Source of the DNA: a virus
Strand: one strand, 5' to 3'
IMG/VR virus record: IMGVR_UViG_3300025030_000039
Location: 1 to 60,877 of that record
Length of the DNA: 60,877 nt
Positions 4,297 through 60,028 of the stretch are shown one piece after another. Numbering within the stretch: position 1 is the first letter of the stretch; each line of letters starts with the position of its first letter. A program made the translations under genes and the position numbers. The notes beneath the pieces were generated by a model. It did not search any database. It was not told the DNA's origin and saw only the letters and a list, made by a program, of their open reading frames with translations.

Positions 4297-5991
4297 TTAC
4301 TTTTTATTATATTTTTCTTGATCTTCAGGTCTCCAAAATTCTTGTTTATATGTATCACTCCATAATTTAATTGCTTTTTGTACTCCATCAGGATCTTCTG
4401 TTTTTAAATATGGATGAACATCTAATATCATTTTAACTAAAAGATTAGCCCATTCCATTTGTTTTAATCTAATTGAATATTTTACAACATTTATTAATTC
4501 TTTAGAAGTAATTTTTTTTCTACTTCTTTTATAAGCAATTGCAGACATCATAGCTTGAGCAACATTTGCATTAAGTGATTGTTTATCTTTTCCTCCACCT
4601 ACATTAAATGTTAAAGGAGCACTAGGTGGAATTTTTGCTTTATCTGGATCAGAGTATACATAATCTATATCTTTATCATCCATATGACCAGCTATAGTAT
4701 TTTTAAATGCTATAAACATCATAGCAGGAGTTTTGCCTATTGTAGTTTCTAATGCATCTAATATATCTTGATCGGTTAATTCTTTTCCTTCTGTTTTAGC
4801 TATTTTTTCATACCATGCATATTTTTTTGCTGCTTCAACCCAAGATCTTGGAGAAGCCCATACTGGAGATTCTTCTCCAATAATATATCTATGAAAATAT
4901 TTTTCATTAAATTTAATAAAAGCTAGCATATGGCTACTTAATAAAATTTCTTTAGCTATTTGTATATCAGAATCTGGATCTTTTTCTTTTGTTTTAAGCC
5001 ATTTTTCCCATGAAGCAGGATCTGCTACTAAATTAACATGATGAAATCTATTTCCTAATGCAGAACCTAAATCTTCAACATCTGCATTTTCTTCTCCACT
5101 AGATCTATTTCCAGCAGATATTATAACCCATTCGCTAGGAAGTTCATAATCACCTGTTTTTAATCCACCTCCTAATTTTCTATCTAAAACAAATTGTAAT
5201 GAAGCTTTTATTACAGGAATAGCAGCTCTATTCATTTCATCGAAAAATATAATTCCACCTTTTCCGTTTTCTCCATTTGTTGTTGGAAATACTAATGGAG
5301 TAGCATATCTGGTTCTACCTACTTTAACTATTTTACCAGTAGCATCTGGCATATCAACATATACAATTTCAGGTACTCCGACAAAATCTGTTGGATCTTT
5401 TAATGATAAATTAAATATAATTAAATCTTTTCCATATTCATCTGCAATTTGTTTAACTATATCAGTTTTACCAACACCTGGAGCTCCCCATATAAATAAT
5501 GGTGATTTTTTTTCTACTGCATATCTTAAATTCATTTTAAGACCTTTAACATCTACATTTTTAACTTCTTTACTTGGATGACTTAAATCTAATGGATTTT
5601 CTTCACCAACTATTCCTTCTTCCAAATTTTTAATATTAATATCTGGAACATTTTTATTTTTTAATGTATTACAATAATATTCTATTCCCCATTTTTTAAG
5701 TTGTCCTTTTTTTTGTAAAAATAATAAATTATATGACCAAGCATGTTTTCCAAATTTTTCAATAAACCAATTTGTTATTTTAGTCCATATTGCATTAAAT
5801 AATCCTTCATTTAATTCATCATTTAATTCATCATTATTATTAAAATTAGAATATATTTCATCTAATTCATCATAAGCTGAATTAAATTCAGGTTCAGGTT
5901 CAGCTTTATTTACAATTTTATTAAATTTATATTCTGCCAATAAATTAATAGAAATATGTTCAGAATACTGCGTAAAATTTTTGAAACTCAT
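4297..5991 (-). CDS. MoxR-type AAA+ ATPase
   Basis: 564 residues. Walker A is GAPGVGKT at 169-176 and Walker B is IIFFDEMNRA near 250; an arginine-finger/sensor region with SPRSWVEAAK lies further on. The family couples ATP hydrolysis to remodelling of targets presented by a VWA partner, which here is the next gene downstream. The first 150 residues are an extra N-terminal region: it holds NLLAE at 16-20 and LNE-G at 60-63, both matching the (I/L)-x-E prohead-protease consensus, so it may be a cleaved propeptide that brings the ATPase into the capsid. A late-type promoter box lies just upstream. Function in infection is unknown. Confidence 0.82.
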   Translation of the reverse strand: MSFKNFTQYSEHISINLLAEYKFNKIVNKAEPEPEFNSAYDELDEIYSNFNNNDELNDELNEGLFNAIWTKITNWFIEKFGKHAWSYNLLFLQKKGQLKKWGIEYYCNTLKNKNVPDINIKNLEEGIVGEENPLDLSHPSKEVKNVDVKGLKMNLRYAVEKKSPLFIWGAPGVGKTDIVKQIADEYGKDLIIFNLSLKDPTDFVGVPEIVYVDMPDATGKIVKVGRTRYATPLVFPTTNGENGKGGIIFFDEMNRAAIPVIKASLQFVLDRKLGGGLKTGDYELPSEWVIISAGNRSSGEENADVEDLGSALGNRFHHVNLVADPASWEKWLKTKEKDPDSDIQIAKEILLSSHMLAFIKFNEKYFHRYIIGEESPVWASPRSWVEAAKKYAWYEKIAKTEGKELTDQDILDALETTIGKTPAMMFIAFKNTIAGHMDDKDIDYVYSDPDKAKIPPSAPLTFNVGGGKDKQSLNANVAQAMMSAIAYKRSRKKITSKELINVVKYSIRLKQMEWANLLVKMILDVHPYLKTEDPDGVQKAIKLWSDTYKQEFWRPEDQEKYNKK

Positions 5992-5999
5992 AACTTTTA

Positions 6000-6016
6000 T
6001 TTTTTTTATATATTAA
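6000..6016 (-). promoter_or_regulatory. Late-type promoter box before MoxR gene
   Basis: Minus strand TAATATATAAAAAAAATA, ending about 9 bases before the ATG at 5991. It resembles the TATATAA(T)AAA boxes upstream of other virion genes here and the T4 late box TATAAATA. Confidence 0.4.
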
Positions 6017-7962
6017 CGATTGTTTGCTTTTCTTGCTAGACGTATACCAGGCATTGCATTATCTACTATTTCACTTAAATGAGTATCAGCAACAACATAT
6101 TGATTTAATATTAAAGATTGTTCTTCTTCTTCAATAGGTGATTTAAATATTCTTATATTGGTTAACTCTATTGGGCATGAAATTAATTTCCAATCTAACC
6201 CATCTGTTATAATATATTTTTCATTTAATTGTTTAGTTTCAGTAAATGAATTTTTTAGTGTACTACCAATATTAAATGCTCCAGTACCTGTTATTTTTTC
6301 TATTTCATATACGAATAAACTTAATTGTTTAAATGTATTAGAAAAATTGATAACTATTCCATACCAATTATCAGTTAAAATTTGAAAATCTTTTGCTTTT
6401 AAATCAAAGTAATAATCATAATTATTAATATTTATAATAAATGCATCCTTTATAAAACCAATTTCAAATTTATCGCTATATTGTAAATATTTGCAATATT
6501 CATATTTTCTGGACCTTGCATTAATACGCACATTTGTTATATATATGGTACTAATTGTAAATTTATTGCTATTAACAGCTATAATGCGATGTATACCATT
6601 ATAATCTTGTGTACCTGTTATTCTAACGATATCACCAACTACATAGTCATTTGTAGCTAATTGAAATACAGTGTTATTATTGATATCAGATTCTATATTT
6701 TCTATAACCAATGAATTATATGATATTCTGCTAGAAGATTTTATCCACATTGTAAATGCTCTATTTTCATCAACTGTTATTCCTTTATTATATCTATAAA
6801 TAGCTGCAATGCTATCTTTAGTTATAGAAGATAGATCATATTGATATTTTGATATTACAGTATAATTATTTCTAATTTGATTATCATTAATTTTTAATCT
6901 TATATCTATTTCTTTTCTTATATAATCTTTATCATTAGTTCCTAATGTATTATATTGATTAGCTTTTCTAACTTTAATTATCTCTTCTTCTTTTTCTTCT
7001 TTAAATCTTTCTTCTGTACTATCAATTATACTATCAATTTCTTCTCTAATTTCAGGACCAGCTTCTTCTTGTTCATAATCTCTATTCTGTCTATCTTGCC
7101 AATCAGTTAAATTAACTTTATAAAAAGGAGTTTCATATAAAGAAGCATTTGGTAAAGCTATAGAATTTATTTCAAACATTCTATCAATCATTGGAAACCA
7201 TATTGCATCTCCTTGTCCTGGTCTTTCTCCTTTTCCAAATGCTGCTTCAAAATGAGTTTTAATTATATGTACTTCAAACATATCTGGAACTTCCATATCT
7301 AATTGACTAAAATGAATTTCACGGCTTGGAAATTCATTATTAGGAACAACAACTTTTAAATCATCAACTTCCTTAACATTGTATAAAGAATATTCTTTAA
7401 ATATAACATCTCTAGAATCTGATTTTGGATTTTGTTTATAATATCTAACAGGTAGTCCAAATATTGTTCCTACTAAACAACTTAATTGATTATAATTAGA
7501 TCTAGCATTTTGTAAATTTGCATATGGATCAAATACAGCTTCTGGACAACAATCGTCAATTATTAATGTTTCATTTGGAGCACAATCATCACCATTACAA
7601 TATTCAACACATGGAATATCTACAATAGATCCATTAGTTGTTATTGTTTCTAACGATATTGATTCAAAAGTTAATGTATTTCCAGTACTTATAGATTCAA
7701 CTTCATATTTATATTGTATCCAAAAAGGCTTAGTTGAATCTAATTCTAATTCTTGTAAATTATCATTAGTTAAAATAATCCAATCTGAATAAAATTTATT
7801 ATCAATTGACCATCTAAAATATTTATAAAAAAAATTATATGTATCTTCACCAGAAATTTCATCTTGATAAGATTCAATACTTGAAATATTCTCGTAAGGT
7901 TTAATTAAACTTATAAATAAAATATCTCCCTTTTGTGTAGCTGATCTTCCTTCTACTGCCAT
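6013..7962 (-). CDS. Virion structural protein, neck-like N-terminal half with LamG-like C-terminal part
   Basis: 649 residues. A segment near residues 235-275 (GDAIWFPMIDRMFEIN followed by ALPN and FYKVNL) resembles T4-type neck protein gp14, where a similar FEI/FY pattern occurs. A long acidic, charged helix rich in Glu and Lys lies near residues 290-330. The last 250 residues have alternating beta strands (FTMWIKSSSRISY, WYGIVINFS, LTNIRIFKSP) as in concanavalin/LamG-like domains, which often bind carbohydrate. Cysteines cluster near residues 120-145. A late-type promoter box and a terminator lie upstream, so it probably starts a late transcription unit. Exact position in the virion is uncertain. 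Confidence 0.5.
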   Translation of the reverse strand: MAVEGRSATQKGDILFISLIKPYENISSIESYQDEISGEDTYNFFYKYFRWSIDNKFYSDWIILTNDNLQELELDSTKPFWIQYKYEVESISTGNTLTFESISLETITTNGSIVDIPCVEYCNGDDCAPNETLIIDDCCPEAVFDPYANLQNARSNYNQLSCLVGTIFGLPVRYYKQNPKSDSRDVIFKEYSLYNVKEVDDLKVVVPNNEFPSREIHFSQLDMEVPDMFEVHIIKTHFEAAFGKGERPGQGDAIWFPMIDRMFEINSIALPNASLYETPFYKVNLTDWQDRQNRDYEQEEAGPEIREEIDSIIDSTEERFKEEKEEEIIKVRKANQYNTLGTNDKDYIRKEIDIRLKINDNQIRNNYTVISKYQYDLSSITKDSIAAIYRYNKGITVDENRAFTMWIKSSSRISYNSLVIENIESDINNNTVFQLATNDYVVGDIVRITGTQDYNGIHRIIAVNSNKFTISTIYITNVRINARSRKYEYCKYLQYSDKFEIGFIKDAFIININNYDYYFDLKAKDFQILTDNWYGIVINFSNTFKQLSLFVYEIEKITGTGAFNIGSTLKNSFTETKQLNEKYIITDGLDWKLISCPIELTNIRIFKSPIEEEEQSLILNQYVVADTHLSEIVDNAMPGIRLARKANNR

Positions 7963-10632: not shown

Positions 10633-11394
10633 TTATACATTATTAACTACGTTTTGAATCTCATAAATCGCGGCCAATAGTGAAATCTGTGGATCAATTA
10701 CCTGTTGACGAGTAGATTGATATTTATTTACAGTTATAATAATTTGTGGAAGATATTTTAATTTATCAGGTTTTTCTTGTTGTAAATATTCAATAAATTC
10801 TGTACCTAAAGATGCTAATACATCATCAACTCTATTAGAATAATTAGAAACTAAATATTGATAATTTTTAACAGGATCTATATTATCGAAAATTAATTGA
10901 AATATATCTTTATAAACGCTATTAAATTTTTTAATATCATCTATTGATATTTTTTCTTTACCTTCATTTTTATATCCTTGTAAAGTATTTAGCATACTTC
11001 TAAAGTCAGGAAATTTTCTTTTAACTAATTCTAATAATGCTTCTTTATCTATAATTAAATTTTCAGCTTTACATATATTCCACAATCTAATTAAATAACC
11101 TTTCATTAATTCAGATTCTTCTTCTTTAGAAAAATCAAAATTAATTAATTCAAATCTAGATTTAACTGCTTCATCTATTTTATTAATATAATTACTAGTA
11201 GCAATAAATCTAGAATTAGCATGAAATTCTTCCATAGATGCTTTAAATGCTTTAAAAAATTGTTGTGAAGCACCATCACAATTATGAGTACATATTCCAT
11301 TTTCTGTTAAAAATGTATGATTTTTATATACTGTTAAATTTAAAACTCTTCCTTTATCTATTTTTTTAATTTGTTTTATTTTAAATGTTTTCAT
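10633..11394 (-). CDS. 44: Clamp loader ATPase gp44, C-terminal piece with C-terminal half of a split intein
   Basis: 253 residues. Residues 1-38 are the C-terminal half of an intein. It has the block TVYKNHTFLTENGICTHN, ending in the His-Asn pair that drives Asn cyclisation. Residue Cys39 is the first extein residue and starts CDGASQQFFKAF, which continues the Walker B of gp44 (T4: IDEFDRSG). The rest carries clamp-loader motifs, including ATSNYINKIDEAVKSRFE with sensor 1 and the SRC-like arginine. The N-terminal piece is at 12752-13378. Protein trans-splicing would restore a complete clamp loader. The nuclease gene at 11381-12712 overlaps its start by 14 bases. Confidence 0.88.
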   Translation of the reverse strand: MKTFKIKQIKKIDKGRVLNLTVYKNHTFLTENGICTHNCDGASQQFFKAFKASMEEFHANSRFIATSNYINKIDEAVKSRFELINFDFSKEEESELMKGYLIRLWNICKAENLIIDKEALLELVKRKFPDFRSMLNTLQGYKNEGKEKISIDDIKKFNSVYKDIFQLIFDNIDPVKNYQYLVSNYSNRVDDVLASLGTEFIEYLQQEKPDKLKYLPQIIITVNKYQSTRQQVIDPQISLLAAIYEIQNVVNNV

Positions 11395-12712
11395 TTATTA
11401 AAAAATTTTTGATTTTATTATTTACTTTTTCTGGAATTTTAAAATTATTTTTTTTAACAATATTATCGAAATGTATATATGTATAATTTTTAAAAAAAAA
11501 TTCATCAATTCTTTTATATGTAAAAAAATTTAAGTTACACCAATAAATTAAACTTTCTTCTTTTAAAATATTAATATCTTTATTCATATAAATTGATGGT
11601 TTTATTTCATATACAACTTTATTTTTATAATCTATAAAATCTATTATATAAATTTTTTCAATATTATTATAAGTATAAGGTATTCTTAAATCTTCATATT
11701 TTAAATCTAAATTTTCATTTAAAATAAAAAAACATAATTCCCAAGAACTTCTAAATTTATACTCAATATTATTGTGTCTTAAATAAATATCTAATTTTGT
11801 CCAATAATTATTAATATTAGGTTTAAATCTATTTTCTGATATAGCCTTCTTAAGAGCAATACTTTGTTTTTTCCTTCTTTCATCGGTAACATAAAATTTA
11901 AAATTTTTATGATAACATTTTAATGAACAGGTATATTGTGATTTTGTTTTTCCTTTTCCAAATAATTGTTTATATTCATATTCTTTATCACATATTTTAC
12001 ATATTTTAATATTTTCATGATAATATGTTTTTACAAAATCTAAAAATTTATCTTTATATAGTTTTTTATAAAAAAATCTTTTATTTCTTAAATTCTTTTT
12101 AATATAAAAACAAGTATCCTCACTTAAATAATAATCTTTTAAATCAATTTTCTTTTTATTATAAAAATAATTTAATCTAAAATCATTAAACATATTAATG
12201 GGATTTTCAACTTTGTTTAATATGAAATTTTTATATAAAATATGTTTTACCTTTTTAATATCTTTATATTCATTTAATAATTTATAACTTATTAAATTTA
12301 AATATGAATAATCATAAGGTTGAAAATTATCAATTATATGTTCATTTTTAAAAAAATATCTTTTATATTTTTGACAATAATCATCATTACATTTATAAAT
12401 TCTTCTATTTTTTAAATCTTTAATCTTTATATTATTATTACATATTTTACATTTTACAATCTTTTCATCATTTTTTTCCTTTTTTAATTTATTACGTTTT
12501 TTTGCACATTCTATTAAAAATGTTTTTTGACATTTTTCATTACAACATATTTCTTTATATCCTGTAAAAAAACCTCTAAATTTTGCATTAGATCCACAAT
12601 ATTTACACTTAGGTATATTTATATTATTTTCTTTTAAATATGCTTCTTCAATAGAAGCATATTTAAATCTAAATTTATTAATTAAACTTCTATTATAACT
12701 ACTATAACCCAT
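11381..12712 (-). CDS. Putative homing endonuclease in the gap of the fractured gp44 gene (zinc fingers plus PD-(D/E)XK-like domain)
   Basis: 443 residues. The N-terminal part has several CxxC pairs (CKYCG...CC, CKIC...C...C, CKIC...C...C), probable DNA-binding zinc fingers. The C-terminal part has FRSSWELCFF...IIDFIDYKNKVVYEIKPS, with the D-x(n)-E-x-K arrangement of the PD-(D/E)XK nucleases; a similar segment is in the gp4-like protein at 33501. It sits between the two gp44 pieces and so occupies the typical position of a homing endonuclease in a fractured gene. A late-type TATATAAATAAA box lies upstream. It differs from the other nuclease genes in this window. Homing activity is inferred from position. 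Confidence 0.65.
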   Translation of the reverse strand: MGYSSYNRSLINKFRFKYASIEEAYLKENNINIPKCKYCGSNAKFRGFFTGYKEICCNEKCQKTFLIECAKKRNKLKKEKNDEKIVKCKICNNNIKIKDLKNRRIYKCNDDYCQKYKRYFFKNEHIIDNFQPYDYSYLNLISYKLLNEYKDIKKVKHILYKNFILNKVENPINMFNDFRLNYFYNKKKIDLKDYYLSEDTCFYIKKNLRNKRFFYKKLYKDKFLDFVKTYYHENIKICKICDKEYEYKQLFGKGKTKSQYTCSLKCYHKNFKFYVTDERRKKQSIALKKAISENRFKPNINNYWTKLDIYLRHNNIEYKFRSSWELCFFILNENLDLKYEDLRIPYTYNNIEKIYIIDFIDYKNKVVYEIKPSIYMNKDINILKEESLIYWCNLNFFTYKRIDEFFFKNYTYIHFDNIVKKNNFKIPEKVNNKIKNFLINENI

Positions 12713-12718
12713 TAATAT

Positions 12719-12735
12719 TTTTATTTATATATCCC
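12719..12735 (-). promoter_or_regulatory. Late-type promoter box before gp44-gap nuclease
   Basis: Minus strand GGGATATATAAATAAAAA just before the ATG at 12712. It would let the nuclease be transcribed separately from the gp44 pieces. Confidence 0.4.
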
Positions 12736-12751
12736 ATTATATTTTTAAATG

Positions 12752-13378
12752 TTATAAAAAACATATTATATTATCCGTCAAACTTAGTCCATTTTTTATA
12801 GATTTTTCCATAATTTTACTATCCTTTGTGAGAATCATAAAGGGATGATTCTCAGTAACATTGATAGTTTTTCCATCTTCTAATTCTATTTCATATAAAT
12901 CATCAATTTTATCAGAAATTATTTCACATGTATCATTTTCTAATTTTCCAGTTTCAGTATTCATAGAAATACAATCATATATAGTATTTTTTTCTAAATT
13001 TTTTAATTTTATAGATTTCCAATTATTAAGTTTACCTATTCTTACCTTTTCATCTTCTTGTAAACATTCGTCTAGAATAACAACTTTAAGTTTTCCAGGT
13101 TCATCCATTATTGATCTAGTAGAACAAAAATCTGTTATTTTTTCTCTAACAACATCTACTGATGTTTCTTTAGATGAATTAATATAAATATATGGATATC
13201 CAAATTCTTTAACAATAGCTTTAGCAACAGAAGTTTTACCTAAACCCGGACTTCCATAAAATAAATAATTTTGAAGTTGACCAGATTTGAATTTTTCCTT
13301 TAAAAAATTTGGAACTACTATGTCATCTATTTTTGTTGGACGATATTTTTCTGTCCATAATATTTCAGATATCTTCAT
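12752..13378 (-). CDS. 44: Clamp loader ATPase gp44, N-terminal piece with N-terminal half of a split intein
   Basis: 208 residues. Residues 1-104 are the clamp-loader N-terminus: WTEKYRPTKIDDIV, Walker A GSPGLGKTS near 42-50, and the beginning of Walker B, VVILDE, at 99-104. Cys105 starts the intein half (CLQEDEKVRIG...), which includes the block B-like TENHPFMIL, and the protein stops at 208. The break therefore falls inside Walker B, a site where only exact splicing gives a working ATPase. The C-terminal half is at 10633-11394. The preceding gene stops immediately before this ATG. It is known that phages carry such split-intein fractured genes; the gp44 case is read directly here. Confidence 0.9.
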   Translation of the reverse strand: MKISEILWTEKYRPTKIDDIVVPNFLKEKFKSGQLQNYLFYGSPGLGKTSVAKAIVKEFGYPYIYINSSKETSVDVVREKITDFCSTRSIMDEPGKLKVVILDECLQEDEKVRIGKLNNWKSIKLKNLEKNTIYDCISMNTETGKLENDTCEIISDKIDDLYEIELEDGKTINVTENHPFMILTKDSKIMEKSIKNGLSLTDNIICFL

Positions 13379-51279: not shown

Positions 51280-52221
51280 TTAAAACAAACTAGAGCTATA
51301 GATTAAATTTCTATCTAAAGTTTGTAATCCTATTGCTGCAATAACTCTATTTATTGGATCTATAATAGTTTTTTCAAACTGTAATTCATAATCCATAGGT
51401 GGAGCAAATTCATATGGATAAGATCCTGCTATATAAGAAAATATATTACATACTTTATCTGTAGTATAATAAATTTTAACTTTTTCTCCATCAGCTATTA
51501 AATTATATTTGTTTTTAAATTTAGAATTATATAATAAATAATTATGATAACCACTTCCTCTTACATGTAATGGACATCTTTTTTCTATTGTAAATTCTTT
51601 TCTATCATTTAGAATATATTTTTTATAATTATTAATACTTAAATTTTGTGAAATATGTTCTAAGTTTGCTAATTTAAACTGCTGTTTAATTTTTTTAAGA
51701 TATTTAACCATTTCACTTATTTTTACATCTTCTACAGAAAAAATATACTTTAATAACTCTTTTAATTTTTCTCTTGCAAATTGAGGTGTAGATGATTGTA
51801 TAATCTCAAATCCTTTAGATTTAATTTTTGTTAAACTTTCAAAACTTATATCAGGATCTTTCCATATTAAATCTTGCATATATTTTTTCTTAGCTAACCA
51901 TATAGCACTTTTAGCAATAGATTCTAACTCAAAATTTAAATAATTTTCAGTATTATTATTATCAGCATATTCTTGTAATATATTTTCAATATATTTTTTT
52001 AATCTTTTATTATAAATTTCTAATATAAAATCTTTTATTGTACCTGTCCAATTACATTTATCTAATACTTCACCAAATGCAAGGTAACAAGAATTATGTA
52101 CTAAAATATCATTAGCAATAAAAGTATGAGTATTATCATCAACTTCAATATCATAAACATATTCATCAAAAAATCCTATGCATTCGCAACTTTCTATATC
52201 TTCAAATTTATAATTATTCAT
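51280..52221 (-). CDS. 43: DNA polymerase gp43, C-terminal piece with C-terminal half of a split intein
   Basis: 313 residues. Residues 1-43 are the intein half, ending VDDNTHTFIANDILVHN. Ser44 starts the extein SCYLAFGEV, which continues polymerase motif C. Further on, KGFEIIQSSTPQFAREKLKE and KRCPLHVRGSGYHNYLLY match T4 gp43 (METQKSSTPKAVQKALKE, CPFHIRGILTYN). The end, LQFEKTIIDPINRVIAAIG...SSSLF, matches LLEKTFIKPLEGF...ASLFDMF, including the clamp-binding tail. The upstream half is at 53910-54680. The nuclease overlaps its start by 8 bases. Confidence 0.9.
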   Translation of the reverse strand: MNNYKFEDIESCECIGFFDEYVYDIEVDDNTHTFIANDILVHNSCYLAFGEVLDKCNWTGTIKDFILEIYNKRLKKYIENILQEYADNNNTENYLNFELESIAKSAIWLAKKKYMQDLIWKDPDISFESLTKIKSKGFEIIQSSTPQFAREKLKELLKYIFSVEDVKISEMVKYLKKIKQQFKLANLEHISQNLSINNYKKYILNDRKEFTIEKRCPLHVRGSGYHNYLLYNSKFKNKYNLIADGEKVKIYYTTDKVCNIFSYIAGSYPYEFAPPMDYELQFEKTIIDPINRVIAAIGLQTLDRNLIYSSSLF

Positions 52222-53917
52222 TCCAACTAAATTTTAAATTACCACTATTCCATATTCTATTATATCCCTTATCATGCATTATTTCTACCTCTGTTAAATT
52301 TGGATCTGCTCCTTCTTTAACTAAAACATCTTTTCTATATTTAAATCTATTTTCTTTAATTTCAAAATTAGACCAATAATAATTCGGTTTAACTAAATAA
52401 TCAAAACTAAATCCTAATTTTATATATAAATTATCTTGTTCATCTGATGTCCAATCACAATCTGCATAACTAATCACTCGATTTGGTTTATACTCTTTAA
52501 TAAAATATTTAAATAAACGACTTGCTCCACCTATAACTGTTGTATCCAATTTATTAACAAATCTTAAAAGCTCATATTCTCCTTCAATAGCCTTTTGTCC
52601 TAAATTCTTCCTTAATTTTCCAAAGGTCATTAATGATACCAATTCATCATTATAATATAAACCTAATTTGACGGCTGCATTTACATTACCCTGTAAATGA
52701 TTATTATTTAAAAAAAAACTATTTTCTTTTGATAATACTTCTTTAATTATGCATTTACGAGCATATATTCTATTATATGTTAAATTTAATAATTGTTTTA
52801 GTCTAGATTTAATTATATCTTGTTTATTTATCCAATCATCTTCCCATATATGTATAAGTTTAACTCCTTTTTTCTTTGCTAATAATGTTTTGTTTATATG
52901 ATATTCTTTATTTTTATGTAATTCTGAATGCCAATATAATCCATTAAATTCAATACCAATTTTATTATTAGGCAAATAAATATCAATTTCTAATGGTGTA
53001 ATAATATATCTAATATTTTCTTCTATTTTTATATTATAATCATTAAGAAATTTTATTATTTCTATTTCTCTATTACTTCTAGATTTATCTATAGGATAAC
53101 ATAATAAGCAAGGATTTAAATTAGCTTTTATTCTATGATATAAATGATTTATTCTTATATTATAGTTATTATTGCATTTATTACATTTTATTTTAACATT
53201 TCCATTTATTAATTCTATGATATTAATATTATATAAATTTTTTATTCTTATTAAATTTTTATCATTTATTTTTTTTCTTATATTATGTTGTATTATATTA
53301 TTTTGCATTGCGCATACTACATCATATCTTTCTAAATTTGTTTTTTTAATCTTATCTTGTACTTCTTTATTTTTAGCAGGATTATCAACTCCATATCGTT
53401 CTAAATTAGTTTCTTTAATTTTTTCTTTTATTTCTTTTCTTTGTAAACTATGTTCAACTCCATATTTTTTTAAATTTGTTTCTTTAATTTTTTCTTTAAT
53501 ATTATTATTTTGAAAACTATATTCTACTCCGTATTTTTTAAAATTTGTATCTTTAAGTTTATTTTTTATGATTTTACATTTTAATGGACTATCTACTCCA
53601 TATCTTTCTAAGCATGTTTTTTTATAATTTTTAATAGATAATATTTTTGAACATTCTTTTGAACAAGTTTTATGATATCCTGTTTTAAATTTATAAAAAG
53701 ATAGTACTTCCTTTTTACAAATTTCACACTTTGGAAATGATGAAATTTTATTAATGTAATTAAATAATTTATTAGAAAATAATGTTATATTATTATTAAT
53801 ATTAAAATCATAATTATTTATTTCATCATATATTAATTTATAATGATTTTTAATATAATGTTCTGTTAAAAATAAAGTAGATTTAGTATTTTTAATATCG
53901 TTTATAAAATTATTCAT
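52214..53917 (-). CDS. Homing endonuclease in the gap of the fractured DNA polymerase gene
   Basis: 567 residues. An N-terminal CEIC...C zinc finger is followed by four to five ERYGV repeats (LERYGVDSPLKCKIIKN, KKYGVEHSLQRKEIKE), a middle EDxHD/Vsr-like nuclease region (PLEIDIYLPNNKIGIEFNGL, WHSE, LIHIWEDDW) and the same C-terminal module as 25622 and 34048. It overlaps both polymerase pieces by 8 bases. It is the arrangement described for fractured genes with split inteins. The nuclease probably homes into the polymerase motif C site. Confidence 0.88.
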   Translation of the reverse strand: MNNFINDIKNTKSTLFLTEHYIKNHYKLIYDEINNYDFNINNNITLFSNKLFNYINKISSFPKCEICKKEVLSFYKFKTGYHKTCSKECSKILSIKNYKKTCLERYGVDSPLKCKIIKNKLKDTNFKKYGVEYSFQNNNIKEKIKETNLKKYGVEHSLQRKEIKEKIKETNLERYGVDNPAKNKEVQDKIKKTNLERYDVVCAMQNNIIQHNIRKKINDKNLIRIKNLYNINIIELINGNVKIKCNKCNNNYNIRINHLYHRIKANLNPCLLCYPIDKSRSNREIEIIKFLNDYNIKIEENIRYIITPLEIDIYLPNNKIGIEFNGLYWHSELHKNKEYHINKTLLAKKKGVKLIHIWEDDWINKQDIIKSRLKQLLNLTYNRIYARKCIIKEVLSKENSFFLNNNHLQGNVNAAVKLGLYYNDELVSLMTFGKLRKNLGQKAIEGEYELLRFVNKLDTTVIGGASRLFKYFIKEYKPNRVISYADCDWTSDEQDNLYIKLGFSFDYLVKPNYYWSNFEIKENRFKYRKDVLVKEGADPNLTEVEIMHDKGYNRIWNSGNLKFSWNE

Positions 53918-54680
53918 TATAAATTGATAATATTTTATCTGTTAGTATATTAATATCTCTTGCTTTAATAATTTTTTTATCACCTTTTCTAAAAACTATT
54001 AATGAATGATCACCTGTAACATCTATTTCTTTACCAGATTTAGTTTTTAATTTCCATTTATCTTTTTTAACTTTATGTCTAATTATTCTTTTTACATTAG
54101 CATAATAAAGTTCAGAGTCATTAAAGTTAAGTATTTTATCATTTGTTAAAACTGATTCGTGACCAGTCATTGTTTCTCCACCAGAACCATTTTTAATATT
54201 TATATTATACCATTCTTCTACTGAAAATTCACCTTTATCAGTTTTTATTTTAGCTTCTTTTTGTATCGAGTCCGTATCAATATATACGCCTATAGGTTTT
54301 AAAACTTTACCTGTTACTTTTATTCCCATACTTGCATGTAATTCAGTATCAGTATGCCATGTTTCATGAAAATACTTATTTATTAATGCTTCAGTATATA
54401 ATATAGCATCCTGACCCTGTAATGTAATTGTTTCGGCTAAATTTATATTATAGAAATAAAAATGTTGGTTACCAAATGCACCATATATGGAATTTAAAGT
54501 TAATTTAACGGATTGTTCCATATTATAATATCTTTTAGCTAAGGATTCTTTTTCTGCTAAAAGTTTTTCTAATTCTTCTGTTGATAAAGATTCGAAATTA
54601 TCTGTTGTTTCGTATTCAAATAACACTTTCTCATCACCATTACTAGAATTCATTACTGAATCTCCGGCGTTTCCTTGCAT
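53910..54680 (-). CDS. 43: DNA polymerase gp43, middle piece with N-terminal half of a split intein
   Basis: 256 residues. Residues 45-137 are the polymerase palm segment: motif B KLTLNSIYGAFGNQHFYFYN near 59-78 and motif C IDTD at 134-137. Ser138 begins the intein half (SIQKEAKIKTDKGEFSVEEW), with a block B-like TGDHSLIVF, ending at 256. The N-terminal exonuclease and motif A (DxxSLYP) are missing and are not found elsewhere in this window. So the polymerase is split at least three ways: an N-terminal part elsewhere, this piece, and 51280-52221. It starts MQGNAGDSVMN just after the capsid-like gene. Confidence 0.9.
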   Translation of the reverse strand: MQGNAGDSVMNSSNGDEKVLFEYETTDNFESLSTEELEKLLAEKESLAKRYYNMEQSVKLTLNSIYGAFGNQHFYFYNINLAETITLQGQDAILYTEALINKYFHETWHTDTELHASMGIKVTGKVLKPIGVYIDTDSIQKEAKIKTDKGEFSVEEWYNINIKNGSGGETMTGHESVLTNDKILNFNDSELYYANVKRIIRHKVKKDKWKLKTKSGKEIDVTGDHSLIVFRKGDKKIIKARDINILTDKILSIYNE

Positions 54681-58855: not shown

Positions 58856-60028
58856 TTAACCTTGACACAGGGAAAATTCGCACGAATGACAATATGTACA
58901 ACCTTCCTTTTTATAAAGACCTGACGGATCTCCGCATAAAGGACATTTAGTCTCAGATAACTTTTCTTCTGCATCACCTTTTAAGTATTTAGATAATGTT
59001 CTAGAAATTGCTTTACTAAATGCTACTATAGTTCCTTCAGATTTATTTAATTGTTGAACAATGAATTTAATATCAGCACCATGTCTTAGACTAACAGATA
59101 TCATTCTAGTAAGAGCTTCTTCTTCATCTCTTTCGAATAATTCATTAACATTATCTAGTACTCCATTACCTGATATTTCTAAACTATAATGACCTCTTTT
59201 AACTTTTGTTAGAATAGCGTCTTTTATATTTTTAGATATACTTATATTTTTCTCTTTAAAAGCAAATACTTCATAAGGTTCATTATCCATTAGTCCTACA
59301 ATTACGACATAATCGTGTCCCTTTGCTGTAATATGATGTATATTACAAGGAAGAGATTTAGGTCTAATAGGAGCTTCAGTTTTAATTATTTTTTCTTTTT
59401 GTTTTTTATTGCTAACAAGTACTCCTGATCTTGAACCTTCTCTATAAACAGTTAATCCTTTACATCCTGATTTCCATCCCGTCTCATATACCTTAGATAC
59501 CATATCTTCAGTTGCATTTTCTGGCAGATTTGTCGTCGAACTTATAGAATGGTCTATCCACTGTTGAATTGCACCTTGCATTTTTACTTTTGCAACCCAA
59601 TCAATATCTGCAGATGATGCTTTATAATAAGGAGATTTTTTAATTACTTCATCTAATTGAGTTTCATTATATAATTTTACTTCTTCTATATTATAATTAT
59701 TAATTTTTAACCATTTTAAAAATTTAGGATGAAATACTAAATATGTTTCCCATGCATCACCTGAAAAATCAGTAAATGAAATATTAACTTCTTTATCGTT
59801 TGGATTTACTTTTCTATTTCTTTTATATACTGGAAGAAAAACAGGTTCAATTCCAGATGTAGTTTGTGTCATAAGGGAAACTGTATTATGAGATACTATT
59901 CCATTATCTAAAATATAATAATGAGTATCTTCTACCTCTATATCCATTGTATAATCAGTATCCGTAGTTTTTTCTAATATTTCTATTAACTCATATTGTA
60001 TATTTTCTAAATTAACTATTTCTTGCAT
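58856..60028 (-). CDS. nrdJ: Class II ribonucleotide reductase (NrdJ), C-terminal piece with C-terminal half of a split intein
   Basis: 390 residues. Residues 1-48 are the intein half (YTMDIEVEDTHYYILDNGIVSHN, split here: TMDIEVEDTHYY and ILDNGIVSHN). Thr49 starts the extein TVSLMTQTTSGIEPVFLPVY, the PSG-T catalytic loop of NrdJ. The rest carries TGWKSGCKGLTVYREGSRSG and a C-terminal Cys-rich tail CPLCGDPSG...CTYCHSCEFSLC used for re-reduction. The N-terminal reductase piece lies outside the window; the nuclease at 60016 fills the gap. The enzyme makes deoxynucleotides with adenosylcobalamin. Confidence 0.85.
   Translation of the reverse strand: MQEIVNLENIQYELIEILEKTTDTDYTMDIEVEDTHYYILDNGIVSHNTVSLMTQTTSGIEPVFLPVYKRNRKVNPNDKEVNISFTDFSGDAWETYLVFHPKFLKWLKINNYNIEEVKLYNETQLDEVIKKSPYYKASSADIDWVAKVKMQGAIQQWIDHSISSTTNLPENATEDMVSKVYETGWKSGCKGLTVYREGSRSGVLVSNKKQKEKIIKTEAPIRPKSLPCNIHHITAKGHDYVVIVGLMDNEPYEVFAFKEKNISISKNIKDAILTKVKRGHYSLEISGNGVLDNVNELFERDEEEALTRMISVSLRHGADIKFIVQQLNKSEGTIVAFSKAISRTLSKYLKGDAEEKLSETKCPLCGDPSGLYKKEGCTYCHSCEFSLCQG

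Follow-up and report, generated by a model that had tools for sequence, protein, structure and literature searches.

A clamp-loader gene fractured at Walker B by a split intein, and the predicted TnsA-like nuclease in its gap

Fractured genes were reportedly defined by Dassa et al. in 2009 as genes of conserved enzymes that are broken by a split intein and have a free-standing endonuclease in the gap, mostly in phages, and a new, Vsr-related nuclease family is said to occupy about half of these loci. Here, we describe a locus of the same arrangement in a 60,877-nucleotide stretch of giant-phage DNA (the window), taken from a virus record in IMG/VR that spans 429,198 bases (IMGVR_UViG_3300025030_000039, G000 below). 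The broken gene is that of the clamp loader gp44, the break lies in the Walker B motif and the gap holds an open reading frame (ORF) for a predicted nuclease. Unlike the Vsr-related family, this nuclease is predicted to be TnsA-like, and its sampled relatives are found almost only where an ATPase gene is broken after the Asp-Glu of Walker B and before a Cys (DE/C, the slash marking the break).

The niche is not new to non-Vsr nucleases: according to the extract available of PMC6892783, the split intein in PolB of jumbo phage MIJ3 holds an HNH enzyme. This is likewise a non-Vsr nuclease between the intein halves of a jumbo phage, but it is of the HNH type, in a polymerase gene and at another site. 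Campylobacter phage IBB_35 has split TerL, PhoH and nrdA genes with inteins and HNH/Hef nucleases; its PhoH is interrupted by inteins, and the relatives CPt10, WX1 and CP21 analyzed here have the predicted TnsA-like nuclease in PhoH. In the accessible parts of its text, the IBB_35 account names HNH/Hef nucleases but neither a TnsA-like family nor a restriction to Walker B (PMC3322345). Excerpts of two further papers describe inteins in the ATPase domain of mycobacteriophage TerL (PMC5050341) and in TerL of Salmonella phage Marshall (PMC3853055). In the literature searched we found no split intein in gp44, no TnsA-like nuclease in split inteins, and neither the restriction of such a nuclease family to Walker B nor its swapping between genes; this is weak evidence, as most subscription papers lay outside the search.

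The fractured gp44 locus

All five parts of the locus are on the minus strand. The N-extein (13067..13378; residues 1-104) ends with PGKLKVVILDE, in which VVILDE is Walker B, and the break follows directly after its DE. It matches the clamp-loader profile phrog_168 at positions 7-117 (E 5.9e-32), and the C-extein (10633..11280; 215 residues and a stop, starting CDGASQQF) matches positions 110-309 (E 2.7e-34; 112-309 at 2.4e-34 in a second comparison) as well as the Pfam Gp44_lid family (4.5e-12). Profile positions are, therefore, nearly contiguous across both pieces. The N-terminal intein half (IntN; 12752..13066) has 104 residues and a stop (12752-12754), starts CLQEDEKV with Cys1, carries TENHPF as block B and has a net charge of -6. 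The C-terminal half (IntC; 11281..11394) has 38 residues, MKTFKI...GICTHN, the THN being followed by Cys+1, and a net charge of +6. Between them is an ORF for a predicted homing-type nuclease of 443 residues (11381..12712), an assignment based on a match to phrog_15427 (endonuclease, 4.2e-26), conservation, structural models and fold matches. Its start is 39 nucleotides from the stop of the N-piece, and it overlaps the start of IntC by 14 nucleotides.

Both ends of the intein exceed curated cut-offs, with TIGR01445 (intein_Nterm, 4e-7, residues 105-182) and TIGR01443 (intein_Cterm, 1.9e-5, residues 19-39). PF14890 is found on IntN with an E-value of 2.3e-8, but its 34.4 bits are below the cut-off of 35.8. 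The intein half also aligns with inteins of solved structure in the PDB (PolC 0.004, DnaB 0.014). As in class 1 inteins, Cys1, a TxxH-type block B, a terminal HN and Cys+1 are all present. All 64 relatives with the canonical split conserve Cys1 and the last Asn, and 61 of them show the block B pattern; the penultimate His is present in just 11/64, with Ser at this position in 44/64. Altogether, the locus has the features of a fractured gene, namely an enzyme gene broken by complementary intein halves, a free-standing endonuclease ORF between them and uninterrupted orthologues in relatives.

These orthologues came from IMG/VR scans with the two gp44 pieces, which gave 80 loci (the best 80 of 126 relatives) and another 36, some contigs being in both. 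In all 116 gp44 loci fetched the exteins are joined directly, just one codon separating residue 104 from residue 2 of the C-extein. This codon is Ile in 115 of these empty alleles and Ala in one, and the Cys+1 of the fractured gp44 thus stands in place of the Ile of its relatives.

An assembly artefact was considered and rejected: the window is identical to the record of an uncultured phage (LR756500.1, 462,018 bases) across the 5,601 bases tested, and the same gp44 arrangement is present in 13 other IMG/VR clusters. G000 and LR756500 possibly come from one metagenome, and their identity is not independent proof. An intact gp44 elsewhere in the genome was rejected as well. No second gp44 was found in G000 or LR756500; the remaining phrog_168 matches are at 1e-10 or weaker, and the two best of them resemble other AAA proteins, as judged by eye. 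The preliminary description of this DNA, made from its letters alone, had proposed a gp44 split inside Walker B by a split intein with halves of about 104 and 38 residues and had named an intact second copy as one finding that would speak against it. The split is borne out by the profiles on both pieces, the intein models over cut-off and the 116 empty alleles, the two lengths are exact, and there is no such copy among the matches in the two records.

The nuclease and its relatives at DE/C junctions

Alignments of the nuclease were built from nine sequences, later from 40, and then from 49 cores. The window nuclease has three finger-like C4 clusters (C36/C39/C57/C61, C88/C91/C108/C113 and C238/C241/C262/C266), all of which precede a PD-(D/E)XK core made up of E325, E340, D358 and E369-x-K371. 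E340, D358 and E369 are present in all 40 aligned rows, E325 is Glu in 35 and Asp in five, and K371 is Lys in 39 and Arg in one. At least one CxxC is found within the first three quarters of the protein in 25/40 rows, and the C4 finger-like modules probably bind DNA. The window copy alone matched no family in Pfam. Among its relatives, the TnsA-like family PF08722 was matched by 7/9 rows at E <= 5 (best 1.7e-9) and by 41/49 cores at E <= 0.01, the window's own copy not being among them. The phage endonuclease I family of Pfam was matched by 3/9 and 10/49 rows and DUF559 by 1/49; the window copy matches neither.

The predicted model of the full-length nuclease has a mean predicted local distance difference test score (pLDDT) of 70.3, dropping below 50 at residues 83-141 and elsewhere, and that of the nuclease domain alone reaches 91.7. 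In a fold comparison TnsA (PDB 1t0f, 1f1z), which shares the PD-(D/E)XK core, came first with Z scores of 9.3 and 9.0 (9.1 for the domain alone), followed by ribosomal rows (6.6 and 6.5), Vsr (6.3) and the EDxHD/Vsr enzyme I-Bth0305I (PDB 3r3p; 5.9), whose catalytic domain has a related fold. Foldseek E-values for the model were weak, with a best value of 3.1e-3, and a profile search of PDB sequences gave a weak match to T7 endonuclease I (PDB 1m0d; E 0.0085 and 0.021), another enzyme with this core. EDxHD/Vsr-like homing endonucleases have a conserved His-Asp catalytic pair. None of the columns that are invariant or nearly so across the 40 aligned members holds a His. A Vsr-like identity of the window nuclease was considered and rejected for its motif, and the fold ranking, with Vsr and I-Bth0305I below TnsA, leans the same way. 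According to the model, the window nuclease is a PD-(D/E)XK enzyme that is closest in fold to TnsA. Unlike TnsA and T7 endonuclease I, it has finger clusters and resides in an intein gap; no transposon setting was noticed around it, nor were TnsB/TnsC-type neighbours, for which no aimed search was made, and no resolvase setting was noticed either.

Relatives were found beyond the window. A tblastn search of 50,697 phage records gave matches in 48, among them LR756500 itself and E. coli phage kaaroe (host K-12 MG1655); most of the matches fall in the C-terminal domain. In all nine of these records that were inspected, the relative is inside an ATPase gene that is cut after Asp-Glu and before Cys, and intein halves flank it on both sides, as read by eye. 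The broken gene is TerL in phiR1-RT, TB34 and Thanatos-2, PhoH in the Campylobacter phages WX1, CPt10 and CP21, and UvsW in S16 and Proteus PM2; in Lak-B2, read with code 15, it is a helicase. Two of the TerL loci, those of TB34 and Thanatos-2, have IntN and nuclease joined in one frame, IntN first; in CP21 the nuclease is broken, and so is PhoH further on. Curated intein models matched the UvsW halves of S16 (TIGR01445 4.8e-11, TIGR01443 5.5e-6) and the PhoH N-piece of WX1 (TIGR01445 1.5e-6); the TerL halves of phiR1-RT gave no curated intein match.

A scan of IMG/VR with the window nuclease as a single sequence found no relative, but alignment-based scans did. They covered the best 80 of 166 and the best 80 of 167 relatives, among 188 pattern matches, and the 156 locus records pooled from both fell into 84 nuclease clusters. 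The sampling of clusters was not random. A peptide pattern derived from nine nucleases, those of the window and of eight relatives already known to occupy such gaps, served to collect them, and diverged free-standing members would escape it. Junctions were placed by profile hidden Markov models (HMMs) of the intein halves with no condition on the exteins; the training halves had first been picked by DE-C and N-C patterns. On the N side the HMM junction is DE/C in 79 clusters, IE/C in one (L180, a TerL, five residues beyond DE) and missing in four, of which L253 is DE/C by pattern, L175 is free-standing, and L291 and L215 offer hardly any sequence upstream. DE/C can, therefore, be read in 80/84 clusters. 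On the C side the junction is N/C in 80, N/T in one and missing in three (two contig ends and L175). Asp-Glu thus precedes Cys1 at all readable junctions but one, and Cys is at +1 in all but one. By their C-exteins, 80 clusters and the window (n = 81) were assigned to UvsW-like helicases (51), TerL (14), clamp loaders (13), CobS/MoxR-like AAA proteins (2) and PhoH (1), and the break of gp44 at this bond recurs in 13 other clusters, namely L204 and 12 of the 80. L204 was left out of the 81 because a second, apparently contiguous intein interrupts its clamp-loader C-piece (5608-7776; ARFILT/CVTGDT). The sampled nuclease family is, therefore, found almost only in genes fractured at DE/C of Walker B, in at least five ATPase families. 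This adds a nuclease family, tied to one catalytic motif, to the fractured-gene arrangement.

The preliminary description had seen a nuclease with zinc fingers and a D...E-x-K core that is not Vsr-like, and a different nuclease family entering the fractured-gene niche. Core and finger clusters were all found, the core in the 40-row alignment, the fold is nearer to TnsA than to Vsr with no conserved His, and the last claim was right and understated, as DE/C in 9/9 inspected phage records and 80/84 clusters goes beyond it. The comparison with TnsA families that it advised came out in part: TnsA is the best fold match and PF08722 is matched by most members, but the window copy itself does not match that family.

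Two relatives lie outside an intein gap. In L175 (310-2882), with only 310 bases upstream, the nuclease adjoins an uninterrupted clamp loader reading VVILEECDSS; its Cys at +1 is possibly the scar of an intein loss. In G000 itself (349317-349937, minus strand; L222) a 232-residue ORF (E 4e-9) is a stand-alone relative, no intein gap having been noticed around it, and an example of the free-standing members that the peptide pattern would miss.

TerL inteins of the AceL/GOS type are atypically split. Their split point near residue 30-40 is also that of the TerL inteins here, which have their break after about 30-43 residues; in the remaining inteins it mostly comes after 93-113, except for three ORFs that run on to 136-159 and one that is fused to the nuclease. 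A split near residue 100, as in the gp44, helicase, CobS-like and PhoH inteins here, is that of gp41-1-like phage split inteins. The Walker B site in gp44 differs from those of both the gp41-1 and the AceL/GOS inteins. The loci are a large set of candidate natural split inteins of both split types.

Separate histories of nucleases and inteins

In a nuclease tree of 92 rows the label of the host gene changes 15 times, with six changes as the least possible and a mean of 35.0 for shuffled labels; its well-supported branches force at least two changes for the clamp loader, at least five for the helicase and at least three for TerL. For inteins of the canonical split type, a tree of 67 rows that includes two Vsr-type controls has five label changes, the least possible being four. 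Approximately unbiased (AU) tests with well-supported splits only, on 65 shared loci, revealed a conflict in both directions: the nuclease data reject the intein tree (p-AU 5.8e-53), and the nuclease tree is in turn rejected by the intein data (p 8e-4). The 14 clamp-loader nucleases, a set named by host gene, are rejected as one clade (p-AU 4.3e-53), and so are, as one nuclease clade, the nine that share one intein clade (p 0.0065), a set named after the trees were seen. Single loci tell the same. The clamp-loader nuclease of L204 is 66% identical to that of the helicase locus L236 and 36-40% to two clamp-loader nucleases, but its intein is 54% identical to that of the clamp-loader locus L192 and 32% (84 residues) to that of L236. 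Likewise, the helicase nuclease of L142 is 66% identical to that of L210, a TerL locus with an intein of the other split type. Apparently, inteins mostly stay with their gene and nucleases have changed genes, and this suggests that a gap, once established, can also have its nuclease exchanged for another. The window intein groups with gp44 and CobS-like inteins (support 100/99), and because the CobS-like inteins nest among those of gp44 (99/86), an intein has probably moved between these genes, too. The conflict of the trees makes it testable whether homing nucleases and split inteins move jointly or separately, and how a homing nuclease acquires a new gene target.

The locus is very probably explained by a fractured gp44 that is trans-spliced by a class-1 split intein, with a TnsA-like homing endonuclease in the gap, homing, and a swapping of nucleases between DE/C gaps. 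Anatomy, empty alleles, family membership, site restriction and tree conflict were observed, and from them we infer splicing, cutting, homing and the DNA that the nuclease reads. In this model gp44 would be made as two polypeptides that re-associate via the acidic IntN and the basic IntC, and trans-splicing would give one clamp-loader ATPase of 319 residues in which Walker B reads DE-C-D. The product of the gap ORF would be a homing endonuclease that stands alone and belongs to a TnsA-like PD-(D/E)XK family. Its most likely target is an uninterrupted gp44 in a co-infecting relative, which it would cut in the neighbourhood of the Walker B codons; repair would then copy the cassette of IntN, nuclease and IntC, together with the adjoining +1 codon, into the cut allele. 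Since trans-splicing would keep an essential gene working, the invader would be tolerated and not easily deleted. The same family would hold the DE/C gaps of at least five ATPase families and would have been swapped between them.

Several points weigh against this explanation. Cys+1 is absent from the empty alleles and, therefore, the splicing product would differ from the ancestral enzyme beside the catalytic Glu. A two-piece ATPase could in principle work without splicing, and phage genes in pieces that function as separate peptides are indeed known, as cited in the part available of PMC10448857. That the intein halves are merely dimerization domains of a two-subunit ATPase is very improbable, given a break between the catalytic Glu of Walker B and the next residue and the conservation of every splicing residue, with Cys1 and the last Asn in all 64 canonical relatives. 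The core of the window nuclease matches no Pfam family and the protein is a long branch (1.44), unplaced in the nuclease tree, which is why it could be decaying, its intact catalytic residues notwithstanding; its GC content is 15.4% compared to 24.4% for the window. With the broken relative of CP21 in a similar gap, these features would fit an intein that still splices around a dead passenger, homing being long over. We consider this unlikely, since the ORF is intact over 443 residues with all five catalytic positions and three finger clusters, and the low GC content extends to IntC (0.167).

A further possibility concerns the site. The Walker B restriction may reflect a preference of inteins for ATPase active sites, whose gaps many kinds of nucleases would then fill. 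Mycobacteriophage inteins in the TerL ATPase domain, mapped against the Walker B motif, have other nucleases according to the extract of PMC5050341, and the alignment to an NCBIfam model of archaeal RFC that includes inteins (PRK04132.1-3) spans the UvsW junction of S16, which suggests an old intein site there. This possibility is a real one, if short of probable: the PolB, ribonucleotide reductase and topoisomerase A gaps of the same phage carry Vsr-like nucleases at other motifs, a gp44 broken at Walker A carries a Vsr-like remnant instead, and the relatives of the Vsr-like nuclease in the PolB gap are free-standing in the eight readable of nine loci, these three controls being no census of other nucleases at DE/C. 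As to the address of the predicted endonuclease, only the Asp-Glu-Cys codons are clearly common to the joined flanks across gene classes; longer shared recognition DNA, considered as an explanation of the site, was not visible beyond them. Therefore, nucleases either re-learn their flanks, read the Walker B codons or read intein DNA. It is tempting to speculate that this family recognizes its sites by the Walker B codons (hydrophobic run, GAY GAR, TGY), a protein motif serving as DNA address, and would therefore hop between unrelated ATPase genes, but we regard this as doubtful. If true, the nuclease would enter any DE/C split-intein gap or displace the nuclease in it, with the intein as local shelter and the nuclease as traveller.

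Other fractured genes and nucleases

With gp44, four genes of this phage are fractured; the other three gaps have nucleases that are Vsr/EDxHD-like by motif, and none is at Walker B. PolB is broken at motif C (YIDTD/S; window 51280-54680, minus strand) into an N-piece (53910-54680) and a C-piece (51280-52221), with a 567-residue nuclease between (52214-53917), for which Pfam gave the restriction-type family MTES_1575 below cut-off. Its relatives were found at nine loci, eight of them readable, and 0/8 are between intein halves. Ribonucleotide reductase (window 58856-60028 and G000 60019-63033, minus strand; L229) has a split intein and a 377-residue Vsr-like nuclease ORF in the gap, and topoisomerase subunit A (G000 425880-428638, minus strand; L231) a split intein with a Vsr-like nuclease. 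The nucleases of these two gaps matched no nuclease family in Pfam. The gp44 broken at Walker A (GK/TS) is from another phage (L128, 4992-6565); its intein is atypically split with a short IntN, and its gap holds a short Vsr-like ORF remnant, as read by eye.

A weak similarity (single-pair E 0.033) links the fingers of the window nuclease, at residues 34-98, to the corresponding region of the PolB-gap nuclease, at 62-143, hinting, at the level of sequence, at shared DNA-binding modules on different nuclease cores. Next to the ribonucleotide reductase locus (G000 63045-65998, minus strand; L229), an N-terminal part of PolB ends at 64985 beside a 656-residue Vsr-like nuclease, with no intein half seen there; the polymerase is seemingly in three pieces with ribonucleotide reductase genes between. 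A 577-residue ORF further on (G000 78994-80724, minus strand; L230) resembles, by eye, a ThyX with a contiguous intein that carries an HNH-like nuclease.

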